Positions 40,333 to 43,313 of a stretch of 64,000 nucleotides of DNA are shown here, piece by piece (positions within the stretch are counted from its first letter, which is position 1; every line of letters begins with the position of its first letter). The stretch spans positions 3,162,001 to 3,226,000 of the forward strand of contig NZ_CP013420.1 of NCBI RefSeq assembly GCF_001718695.1, written 5' to 3'. A model generated the notes under the pieces. The model worked only from the letters and a program-made list of their open reading frames with translations. It searched no databases and was not told where the DNA came from. Source of the DNA: Burkholderia ubonensis. GTDB taxonomy: Bacteria > Pseudomonadota > Gammaproteobacteria > Burkholderiales > Burkholderiaceae. A program made the translations under genes and the position numbers.

Positions 40333-40788
40333 TCAGGCTGCAGGCAGCGTCTTGCCGAACGAGATGCGTTCCTCGATGCGGTAGCCGAGCGCCGCATAGA
40401 AACGGCACGCGTCGTCGTTGCCGGGCAGCACCTGCAGGTTGACCTTCAGGCAGCCGCGCGCGGCGAGCGCGGCCTCCGCGTGGGCGATCAGCGCGCGGCC
40501 GACGCCGAGCCGGCGCGCGTCATGCGCGACGCCGAACGAATACAGCCAGCCGCGATGCCCGTCGAAGCCGGCCATCAGCGTGCCCACGACGCGCGCGCCG
40601 CTGACCGCGACGAAGAACAGCTCCGGCTGCGTCGCGAGCTTCAGCTCGATCGAGCGCAGCGGATCGCGGTGCGGCGGCGCGTCCGTCTCGCCGTACTGAG
40701 GGAACGCATCGCGCCAGACCGCGAGCACGGCGCCGGTATCGGCGCGATCGAACGGACGGATCGCAACGCCATCGGCGGCGGCATCCAT
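40333..40788 (-). CDS. GNAT-family N-acetyltransferase (YpeA-like)
   Basis: The 151-residue single GNAT domain has the acetyl-CoA-binding motif A region VAHDARRLGVGRALIAHAE and a C-terminal FYAALGYRIEERISFGK, as in YpeA. Substrate unknown. It follows argD by 13 bases and is probably co-transcribed with it. Confidence 0.88.
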   Translation of the reverse strand: MDAAADGVAIRPFDRADTGAVLAVWRDAFPQYGETDAPPHRDPLRSIELKLATQPELFFVAVSGARVVGTLMAGFDGHRGWLYSFGVAHDARRLGVGRALIAHAEAALAARGCLKVNLQVLPGNDDACRFYAALGYRIEERISFGKTLPAA

Positions 40789-40801: not shown

Positions 40802-41986
40802 TCAGAGCGTGTCGAGAATCGACCGCAGCATCGCCATCATCTGGTCGATTTCTTCGGTCGTCACGTTCAGCGCGGGCATGAAGCGCAGCAGGTTCGGGCG
40901 CGCCGCGTTGAGCAGCAGGCCGTCCGGCTGCATCTCGCGCGCCTTCTCGACGATCTGCGGACCGATGTCCCTGCCGAGCAGCAGCGCGCGCAGCAGGCCC
41001 TCGCCGCGCTCGCCTTCGAAGCCGCGCTCTTCCGACAGCTCGAGCAGCTTGCGCTTCAGGTATTCGCCGCGCGCGCGCACGCCTTCGAGGAAGCCGGGCG
41101 CGACGAGCTGCGAGATCACCGAGTAGCCTGCCGCCGTCATCAGCGGGTTGCCGTTGTAGGTGCCGCCCTGGTCGCCGGCCTCGAACACCGCGACGTCGGC
41201 CTTCGACAGCAGTGCCGCGAGCGGCACGCCGCTGCCGATGCCCTTGCCGAGCGTCATGATGTCCGGCTCGATGTCGGCGAGCTCGTACGCGAACAGCGTG
41301 CCCGCGCGGCCGCAGCCGCTCTGCACTTCGTCGACGATCAGGAGCAGGTTGTGCTGCTTCGTCAGCGCGCGCAGCGCGCGCATGAATTCGCGGGTCGCGG
41401 GGATCACGCCGCCTTCGCCCTGGATCGGCTCGAGCATCACCGCGACGGTCTTCCCGTTGATCAGCTTCTCGACCGACTCGATGTTGTTCAGCTCGGCCTT
41501 CGGGAAGCCCGGCACCTGCGGCGCGTACAGCGTGTCCCAGCCCGGCTTGCCGCTCGCCGACATCGTCGCGAGCGTGCGGCCGTGGAAGCCGTGGTCGAAC
41601 GTGATGATCTCGTACGCGCCGTCCTTGAACTTGCGGCCCCACTTGCGCGCGAGCTTGATCGCGCCTTCGTTCGCTTCGGCGCCGCTGTTCGTGAAGAACA
41701 CCTTGTCGAACGCGCTATGCTGCGTGAGCAGGCCCGCGAGCTTCGCCATCGGCTCGTTGTAGAACGCCGGCGACGGGTTCAGCAGCTTTTCCGCCTGCGA
41801 CTTGAGCGCCTCGACGACGCCGTCGTTGCAGTGGCCGAGGCTGTTGACCGCCCAGCCCTGGATGAAATCCAGATAGCGCTTGCCGGTGTGATCGTAGAGC
41901 CATGAACCCTTGCCGTGCGTGAACACGATGTCGGGGCGGGTCGTGATGTACATCAGCGAGTCGATCGGATAATCGTTCAGGGGCAT
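40802..41986 (-). CDS. argD: Acetylornithine aminotransferase (class III, PLP)
   Basis: Transfers an amino group from N-acetylornithine in arginine synthesis (and can serve lysine synthesis). The 394 residues include [17 protein letters not shown], the Asp of [15 protein letters not shown] that holds PLP, and the Schiff-base Lys in [21 protein letters not shown] precedes ATG 41986. An intrinsic terminator ends only about 40 bases upstream with almost no room for a promoter, so transcripts must read through it; see the leader features. Confidence 0.92.
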
Positions 41987-42023
41987 GACGGCAGACTCCT
42001 GCTGGGGGGCAAAGGGAAAAGGA

Positions 42024-42053
42024 CAATAAAAAAGCCACGGGTGATGCCGTGGC
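42024..42053 (-). terminator. Intrinsic terminator / candidate attenuator before argD
   Basis: On the minus strand AGCCACGG, loop CATCAC, CCGTGGCT, then TTTTTATT: a perfect 8-base stem plus U-run. It could end the ferredoxin-reductase transcript, but it also lies between the only good promoter and argD. Confidence 0.85.
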
Positions 42054-42074
42054 TGGGTGGTTCGAACAGCTTGT

Positions 42075-42107
42075 GCGTAACCGGTGAAGCGGGGTAGGGG
42101 GTTACGC
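42075..42107 (-). promoter_or_regulatory. Leader hairpin covering the leader-peptide stop codon
   Basis: In the minus-strand RNA GCGUAACC (42100-42107, containing the UAA stop) pairs perfectly with GGUUACGC (42075-42082). Just 5' of it, GUCACGG (42114-42120) can pair with CCGUGGC of the terminator's 3' arm (42033-42039), with one G-U pair, which would prevent terminator formation. Confidence 0.45.
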
Positions 42108-42185
42108 GCGAGTCCGTGACGAGCCGGCGGCATCCGGGCGGAGCGGCGAGCGGCGACGTCGGAGAGCGGACAGGAAGCGGTTCAT
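42102..42185 (-). CDS. Candidate Arg-rich leader peptide of argD
   Basis: A 27-codon frame with eight Arg codons: residues 3, 9-12 (four in a row), 16, 24 and 26. It begins one or two bases after the predicted transcription start, so it would be translated without a ribosome site, and ends 49 bases before the attenuator hairpin. Arg-rich short frames arise by chance in GC-rich DNA, so position and logic, not composition alone, carry the call. Confidence 0.4.
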
Positions 42186-42192
42186 GTGCGCA

Positions 42193-42222
42193 AGCATACG
42201 GCATCCCGCGTCCCACTGTAAA
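42193..42222 (-). promoter_or_regulatory. Candidate promoter of the argD leader
   Basis: On the minus strand TTTACA (42217-42222), 18-base spacer, TATGCT (42193-42198). Just upstream lies a 9-base inverted repeat, CCGCCGCGA (42223-42231) with TCGCGGCGG (42245-42253), which may be an operator. Confidence 0.5.
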
Positions 42223-42281
42223 CCGCCGCGATGCAACAAATGTGTCGCGGCGGTGCGTGGGGCGCGGGAACCGGCCGGGGC

Positions 42282-43313
42282 TCAGACCGGATGCGCGAGA
42301 TCGGCGGCGCTCGTGAACGAGTCCGCGTAGAACTCGTCCGCGGGCAGCCCGTGATGCTGCGTGAAGTCGCGCTGCGCGGACTCGACCATCACCGGCGCGC
42401 CGCACGCGTAGACCTGGTGCGCCGACAGGTCGGGCAGGTCCTCGATCACCGCGCGATGGACGAAGCCGGTGCGGCCGCTCCACTGGTCGGCGTCGTCCGG
42501 CTCGGACAGCACCGGCACGAACCGGAAGTTCGGAATCTCGCGCGCCCATTGCTCGGCGAGCTCGGCGAGATAGATGTCCTTCTTGCGGCGCGCGCCCCAG
42601 TAGAGCGTCATCGGACGCGTGATGCCCCGGTGCTTCACGTGCTCGATGATCGCCTTGATCGGCGCGAAGCCGGTGCCGGACGCGAGCAGCACGATCGGCT
42701 TGTCCGAATCCTCGCGCAGGAAGAACGTGCCGAGCGGGCCTTCGAAGCGCAGGATGTCGCGCTCCTTCATCGCACCGAACACGTGGTCGGTGAACTTGCC
42801 GCCCGGCATGTGGCGGATGTGCAGCTCGATCGGGCCTTCCTCGTGCGGCGCGTTCGCCATCGAGTAGCTGCGGCGCGAGCCGTCCTTCAGGATGAATTCG
42901 ATGTACTGGCCCGCGAGGTACTGCAGGCGCTCGTTGGCCGGCAGCTGCAGCTTCAGCACCATCACGTCGTCGGCCTTGCGCTCGAGCGCGGCGATGCGGC
43001 ACGGCAGCTTCTTGACCTGCACCCCGTCGACGCCGGCGATCTCGCGCACGTCGATCTCGAGATCGCATTGCGCCTTCGAGCAGCACAGCAGCGCGAGGCC
43101 GCGGGTCCGCTCGTCGTTGGACAGCGCCGACGCGGCGTGCGGGCCCTGCTCGATCTGGCCCGACACGATCTGCCCCTTGCAGGAGCCGCACGCGCCGTTC
43201 TTGCAGCCGTACGGCAGATGGACGTTCTGGCGCAGCGCGGCCGCCAGCACGGTTTCGTCCGACTCGACCTGGAATTGCCGGCCGCTTTGCTTGAGAGTGA
43301 CGTTGAATGCCAT
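42282..43313 (-). CDS. 2Fe-2S ferredoxin-NAD(P)H reductase (glucoseen-reductase type)
   Basis: This 343-residue electron-transfer flavoprotein has an N-terminal plant-type 2Fe-2S domain (Cys37, Cys42 and Cys45 in GCKNGACGSCKG, and a fourth Cys near 75), an FAD domain with RRSYSMANAP, and an NAD domain with LLASGTGFAPIKAI and CGAPVMVES. It is usually annotated as CDP-6-deoxy-delta-3,4-glucoseen reductase, but no sugar-modification genes are nearby, so the partner is unknown. ATG 43313 begins the ferredoxin domain directly; no good ribosome site is visible. Confidence 0.88.
   Translation of the reverse strand: MAFNVTLKQSGRQFQVESDETVLAAALRQNVHLPYGCKNGACGSCKGQIVSGQIEQGPHAASALSNDERTRGLALLCCSKAQCDLEIDVREIAGVDGVQVKKLPCRIAALERKADDVMVLKLQLPANERLQYLAGQYIEFILKDGSRRSYSMANAPHEEGPIELHIRHMPGGKFTDHVFGAMKERDILRFEGPLGTFFLREDSDKPIVLLASGTGFAPIKAIIEHVKHRGITRPMTLYWGARRKKDIYLAELAEQWAREIPNFRFVPVLSEPDDADQWSGRTGFVHRAVIEDLPDLSAHQVYACGAPVMVESAQRDFTQHHGLPADEFYADSFTSAADLAHPV

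Follow-up and report, generated by a model that had tools for sequence, protein, structure and literature searches.

How is arginine synthesis controlled in bacteria where no arginine repressor is detected? The DNA upstream of argD in Burkholderia ubonensis (6.68 Mb genome) raises this question, and we analysed it within a window of 64,000 nucleotides (contig NZ_CP013420.1, positions 3,162,001 to 3,226,000). Judging from its sequence, the argD leader very probably acts as an arginine-responsive transcription attenuator of the classical, ribosome-mediated kind and controls argD, probably along with the downstream GNAT gene. This reading draws on the parts themselves, their conservation, alternative folds in silico and a catalogued short B. 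cenocepacia transcript. If true, it could explain how an order without detected ArgR controls its arginine synthesis.

Searches for ArgR returned no PF01316 match in 120 genomes of the family, that of B. ubonensis included (9 of 14 control genomes were positive), and no PF02863 match in 150 genomes of the order (8 of 14 control genomes positive). As no ArgR was found in the genomes searched, the locus was not assigned to an ArgR regulon. The accessible text of one source describes ArgR as strongly conserved across many groups of gammaproteobacteria and as missing from other classes (PMC5343134).

No conserved equivalent leader was found at argF, argG, argC, argJ, argB or carA, with ten loci surveyed for each gene (argA and argH lay outside the set). 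For some genes in this survey (carA, argB, L176) the script placed the start too far inside the gene, and the Burkholderia argC matches fell below the family cut-off. ORFs with three consecutive Arg codons (RRR) do occur upstream of some of these genes (L185, L186, L191, L195, L200, L207, L208, L210, L211, L221). Five of the 60 loci combine such an ORF with a terminator (L207, L208, L210, L211, L221), none of them common to neighbours; those of L207 and L208 resemble what we take to be the end of the upstream ribosomal protein gene. Separately, five Burkholderia loci (L220-L224) carry a terminator-like TGCCGGC..GCCGGCA followed by TTTTC, 25-27 bases before argJ and with no conserved Arg leader. 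This hairpin could be another control element.

Layout of the locus and its match to a catalogued RNA

The first-pass annotation of this DNA had described a minus-strand promoter, a 27-codon frame with eight Arg codons, four of them consecutive, at the predicted transcript 5' end, a hairpin over the stop codon of this frame and an intrinsic terminator shortly before argD. All four are present on direct reading (Table 1). The Arg codons are numbers 3, 9-12, 16, 24 and 26 of the frame, the -10 box lies 7 bases from the leader ATG, and argD begins 46 bases past the terminator. The GNAT gene starts 13 bases past the argD stop, and the two genes probably share one transcript. A promoter scan of positions 41500-42700 gave the listed promoter as its single promoter-like match, against an average of 0.2 in shuffled sequences. 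Over the same 1.2 kb, one terminator was found and shuffles gave 0.7 (sd 0.9); the terminator is therefore noteworthy only through its conservation, as the scan alone is at chance level.

Table 1. Features at the argD upstream locus, in window coordinates.
Feature	Position	Strand	Basis or remark
Promoter, -35 TTTACA, 18-base spacer, -10 TATGCT	42222-42217 / 42198-42193 (span 42193..42222)	minus	direct sequence read
Leader frame, ATG 42185 to TAA 42104-42102, 27 codons	42102..42185	minus	start at predicted transcript 5' end
Predicted ribosome stall site at Arg codons 9-12 (CGA-CGT-CGC-CGC)	42150..42161	minus	overlaps region 1
Region 1 of 1:2 hairpin, GACG and GCCG	42160-42157 and 42154-42151	minus	in silico folds
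Region 2, GCCGCCGGCTCGTC	42118..42131	minus	in silico, pairs with Arg codons (1:2) or terminator 5' arm (2:3)
GCCGCCGGCU, within region 2	42131-42122	minus	adjoins GUCACGG
GTCACGG, earlier-proposed antiterminator	42114..42120	minus	poorly kept beyond the genus
Hairpin GCGTAACC/GGTTACGC across leader stop	42075..42107	minus	genus-specific, loop length variable
Intrinsic terminator stem, AGCCACGG-CATCAC-CCGTGGCT	42054-42033	minus	terminator scan and conservation
Terminator 5' arm (region 3)	42054-42047	minus	
Terminator 3' arm (region 4)	42040-42033	minus	
Terminator T-tract	42032-42027	minus	whole terminator 42027..42054
Rfam RF02884 (BcKCsr7) match	42028..42199	minus	159.3 bits, gathering score 59
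argD, acetylornithine transaminase	40802..41986 (ATG 41986)	minus	NF002985.0, 808 bits, cut-off 568
GNAT family acetyltransferase gene	40333..40788	minus	NF002959.0, 181 bits, cut-off 124

In an Rfam scan of positions 41900-42400, only RF02884 reaches its gathering score, and no T-box or other amino-acid riboswitch matched above its own. The score of 159.3 bits identifies the argD leader as the same RNA as BcKCsr7, RIT34 or nc5U30. When 15 argD leaders from other genera were compared with RF02884, 11 matched at E<=0.01 and 10 reached the gathering score. The accessible part of the BcKCsr7 annotation describes a Burkholderia sRNA and mentions neither a leader peptide nor an arginine role.

A 2024 review, in its accessible text, places RIT34 (nc5U30, Bc_KC_sr7) of B. 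cenocepacia J2315 at 2,967,641-2,967,787, a length of 147 nt, and reports it as conserved in the Bcc and B. pseudomallei and as expressed in biofilms (PMC10987360). RIT RNAs extend from a Cappable-seq transcription start to a TransTerm terminator, according to the part of the source available (PMC10175445). Measured from the leader ATG through the final base of the terminator stem, the length is 147-150 nt in 44 of the 65 genus loci (range 138-159). The mapped RIT34 start should therefore fall near the leader ATG, and the 147 nt fit an RNA that starts close to this ATG and ends at the terminator. Leaderless mRNAs are known in J2315 from a paper whose main text, as far as available, does not name argD (PMC4603805). 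Sass 2017 lists, in the text at hand, 82 short 5'UTRs from attenuation or processing (PMC5688073), and the nc5U name suggests that BcKCsr7 is among them.

Conservation of the leader frame, Arg run and terminator

The leader locus was found in all 65 genomes of the genus by DNA search, with the frame kept in every one; one of these genomes (G063) is 97% identical to the window over the 401-base query. Four consecutive Arg codons are present in 63 of the 65 leaders, and the other two retain three, having lost a codon in frame. Among the named Burkholderia, Paraburkholderia and Caballeronia loci listed, all of the best 80 carry the Arg run and the terminator.

We also used an arginine-blind caller that considers only the terminator and the -10/ATG arrangement, with a gap of 5-11 bases allowed between the -10 box and the ATG. 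RRR was present in each of the 114 leaders called in this way (65/65 from the genus, 47/47 from the family and 2/2 from the order batch, of which one, L175, is an added family genome). The gap was 6-8 bases in all 114. These leaders span ten genus labels of the family (g1, g3, g7, g8, g10, g13, g17, g20, g24 and g25) and one further family. The family sample consisted of 60 upstream regions from other genera, of which 59 were parsed. In the order search, argD scored above threshold in 21 of 150 genomes, 17 of them outside the family, and 9 of these 17 regions contain an Arg-rich leader and a terminator (families f3, f5, f8, f24 and f35). Hand placement was needed for eight of the nine, whose -10 was unlike the script pattern, and these eight did not enter the blind test; hand-placed Arg-rich leaders reach five further families. 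Two order leaders (L169 and L174) carry only RR. The analysed set comprises 122 leaders, which are related to each other and not independent. Three loci were dropped, L134 because no argD start could be located, L121 because of a contig end and L142 because its start codon contains N's, and three more with a leader recognised by eye and no terminator called by the script (L135, L149, L150) stand outside the set.

The leader was not found in 7 of the 59 parsed family regions (L109, L110, L136-L138, L151, L152), in either g12 family genome or in 8 of the 17 order regions outside the family. The seven family regions lack both leader and terminator and look like losses; two come from 4.1 Mb genomes.

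Across lineages the peptides differ: the non-Arg residues and the stop position diverge while the Arg run stays, and the stretch coding the end of the Burkholderia peptide falls outside the frame in many family leaders. The stop-codon hairpin GCGTAAC...GTTACGC was matched in 63 of the 65 genus loci, with a loop very variable in length, and in none of the 47 family leaders. The first-pass annotation had proposed a comparison of argD upstream regions. Of the elements it named, the Arg run and terminator are kept, the stop position diverges, and the motif GUCACGG is poorly kept beyond the genus. A frame or Arg codons without conservation in relatives would have spoken against its proposal. The comparison did not refute it: the frame is present in 65 of 65 genus genomes, the Arg run and terminator in the best 80 named loci, and an Arg run within differing peptides in divergent lineages.

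This pattern bears on two other explanations. The RNA might be a trans-acting sRNA (BcKCsr7/RIT34), conserved for pairing with other mRNAs and containing the ORF incidentally. Rfam and the accessible text of PMC10987360 do catalogue it as an sRNA, and the latter reports lower levels in C. elegans infection and higher levels in organic peroxide. A second role in trans is conceivable, but we consider this explanation unlikely, as the in-frame Arg run stays while the RNA sequence diverges between lineages, and as the leader and the terminator arm co-vary on average (see below). Moreover, the genus search gave one strong match in each of the 65 genomes, and the three weak second matches (in G020, G030 and G019) lie inside long coding frames.

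Alternatively, the leader peptide might bind arginine or ornithine in the exit tunnel and arrest the ribosome that makes it. SpeFL is a nascent-peptide arrest system of this kind, with its ligand bound in the exit tunnel, and arrest peptides normally retain specific residues. Across families, however, the Arg run alone is conserved in the argD leaders and the flanking residues vary widely, which makes arrest by the peptide an improbable account here, even if the consecutive Arg codons are placed much as in Salmonella ORF34 (codons 12-13 in the accessible text of PMC6386406).

The first-pass annotation had cautioned that Arg-rich frames may arise by chance in GC-rich DNA. For 27 representatives chosen by hand from the 122 leaders, eight of them hand-placed, RRR was found in 25; in dinucleotide-shuffled versions of these leader bodies its frequency averaged 0.081 (highest 0.20). 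At about 8% per leader, chance is a poor account of this result. The other two frames of the same representatives contain RRR in 1 of 27 each. Control stretches yielded 12 distinct promoter-adjacent ORFs, and the seven with RRR are all argD leaders. Thus a short ORF with a run of end-product codons, followed by an intrinsic terminator, is present before argD as in known attenuators; the position before argD is established by NF002985.0 in the window and holds by construction elsewhere, where loci were found via argD.

A weak -10 box, TATTGT (42022-42027), had also been put forward as possibly serving argD directly. It is kept in 11 of 65 genus tails, 0 of 47 family tails and 0 of 10 order-batch tails, and is therefore no conserved argD promoter. 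The same counts weigh against the idea that the terminator merely ends the upstream ferredoxin-reductase transcript, with argD transcribed from its own downstream promoter and the Arg run a product of GC-rich chance. In its favour, the weak TATTGT box lies partly within the T-tract of the window leader and the terminator scan gave no excess over shuffles, but the low chance frequency of the Arg run and the nearly fixed distance of the promoter upstream of the ORF make this idea very hard to uphold.

Alternative RNA folds and the choice of CGA

The attenuator interpretation of the first-pass annotation is supported by the conserved Arg run and terminator, with one correction, which concerns the antiterminator pairing. 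GUCACGG had been proposed to block the terminator, and it can indeed form seven base pairs, one of them G-U, with the terminator 3' arm. It is kept in 64 of 65 genus leaders, 15 of 47 family leaders and 0 of 10 order-batch leaders, and the predicted folds draw its GUC into the 1:2 hairpin. We set it aside as antiterminator for its poor conservation beyond the genus, the competition from the adjacent 5' arm and this engagement of GUC. Folding points to GCCG..GGCU (GCCGCCGGCU) paired with the terminator 5' arm as the likelier antiterminator.

In folds of the untranslated window leader (whole-leader z = -3.09), regions 1 and 2 pair with each other and the terminator folds by itself. When a ribosome on the Arg run is simulated by a mask, region 2 pairs with the terminator 5' arm; the mask was assumed to extend over everything 5' of the ribosome and over 11 bases past the A site. 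Region 2 is GCCGCCGGCU in the window and GCCGCUGGCU, GCCGUCGGCU, GUGCGGCC or CUCGUGCGCC in other lineages. Representatives for the fold and duplex analyses, 22 to 35 of the 122, were chosen by hand. The mean pairing of the 5' arm with upstream RNA was 0.80 for a ribosome with its A site in the Arg run, 0.45 for no ribosome and 0.41 for a ribosome at the stop. The Arg-run value exceeded the stop value in 27 of 28 loci and the no-ribosome value in 27 of 28.

Once energies were centred by row and column, cognate leader-arm pairs surpassed expectation by 2.06 kcal/mol. Arm-swap permutations did as well in 0 of 20,000 trials over 22 loci; over 7 arm classes, P was 0.0016. By raw energy, the cognate arm came out best of the seven for only three of seven leader stretches. 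The antiterminator duplex was stronger than in dinucleotide shuffles (p<0.05) in only 5 of 35 loci, with a mean z of -1.33 and two positive values.

Sequestration of the arm exceeded one half in 13 of 28 loci without a ribosome and in 8 of 28 with a ribosome at the stop, and five loci (L153, L165, L168, L169, L172) had Arg-run and no-ribosome values within 0.02. A trp-type default is therefore not general, the arm being often sequestered without a ribosome and those five loci lacking a difference. In family f24 (L168, L169, L172), region 2 and the terminator arm show almost perfect pairing of 8-9 pairs. The free RNA folds preferentially into the antiterminator in this family, so its default state may be the reverse. 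As a model, the four-region scheme is a good description of the window leader and plausible in other lineages.

We infer that the leader is translated, that ribosomes stall on it and that the outcome depends on arginine. Transcription would start at the leader AUG or a few bases away. With charged tRNA-Arg plentiful, the ribosome would pass CGA-CGU-CGC-CGC and move onto region 2; with region 2 covered, the terminator would form and end transcription, and the resulting short RNA would be BcKCsr7/RIT34. With charged tRNA-Arg scarce, the ribosome would stall on the Arg run and break the 1:2 hairpin. Region 2, now free, would capture the terminator 5' arm (AGCCACGGC) while the 3' arm is still to be transcribed, and argD would be expressed. 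In an untranslated window leader, regions 1 and 2 would be paired and the terminator free, a default not expected in every lineage.

CGA opens the Arg run in 121 of 122 leaders. Across 11 hand-picked window genes, CGA accounts for 1 of 176 Arg codons and CGC, the commonest, for 140 of 176; codons three and four of the run are mostly CGC. In 19 of 28 folds the A of this CGA has a pairing probability of 0.85 or more, mostly to a region 2 U, and much of the CGA fixation is therefore explained by RNA pairing. A claim of pure codon selection is precluded by the same 19 folds. In the other nine (L143, L153, L154, L158, L165, L166, L168, L169, L170) the A is mostly unpaired and CGA is still kept.

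We presume that CGA-CGY-CGC-CGC is read by a single inosine-bearing tRNA-Arg(ICG). Tentatively, the argD leader in this order without detected ArgR might be a ribosome sensor tuned to that one tRNA, reporting its charging and possibly its inosine modification, a suggestion we think less likely than not; CGA would then be placed first because it is readable only through inosine. The fixed rare CGA poses a clean question on codon choice in sensing. That the leader is instead a general translation-status attenuator, reading slow CGA decoding rather than arginine supply, would suit a rare codon that is so often first and whose A is mostly unpaired in nine folds, but is most improbable given that the controlled gene is arginine-specific and the third and fourth codons are mostly the commonest Arg codon.

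Comparison with known systems

Classical attenuators are known for Trp, His, Leu, Thr, Phe and Ile, and we know of none for arginine synthesis. Among the matches listed from the open-licence literature, none was a ribosome-mediated attenuator of an arginine biosynthesis gene, at least one paper names BcKCsr7, and the main text of Naville and Gautheret names neither arginine nor argD (PMC2965389). Catalogues already list this RNA as an sRNA. If true, the attenuator reading would give the sRNA family a testable cis function and provide a simple reporter of arginine starvation.

The Salmonella speF leader ORF34 uses paired Arg codons to sense arginine via Rho, masking of the ribosome-binding site and RNase G, according to the accessible text of PMC6386406. 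Both it and the argD leader have consecutive Arg codons in a leader ORF, and in ORF34 low-arginine pausing changes the mRNA fold. Unlike the argD leader, ORF34, as described in that text, controls ornithine decarboxylase, has no Rho-independent terminator and encodes a DUF2618 peptide. The window leader precedes argD and has an intrinsic terminator, and so does not belong with speF ORF34/DUF2618.

Leaderless attenuators, with the ORF at the very 5' end, include the mycobacterial polycysteine ORFs and rhizobial trpL. The argD leader resembles them in having its ORF at the predicted transcript 5' end, whereas they concern cysteine or tryptophan and occur in other phyla or classes. The trp, his and leu attenuators of enterobacteria combine a run of end-product codons with 1:2, 2:3 and 3:4 hairpins and an intrinsic terminator. 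Unlike these, the argD leader would sense arginine, its ORF lies at the predicted 5' end without a Shine-Dalgarno sequence, and some of its lineages appear in silico to have no untranslated-off state. It is nevertheless of their type in its end-product codon run, its predicted alternative hairpins and its terminator before a biosynthetic gene.
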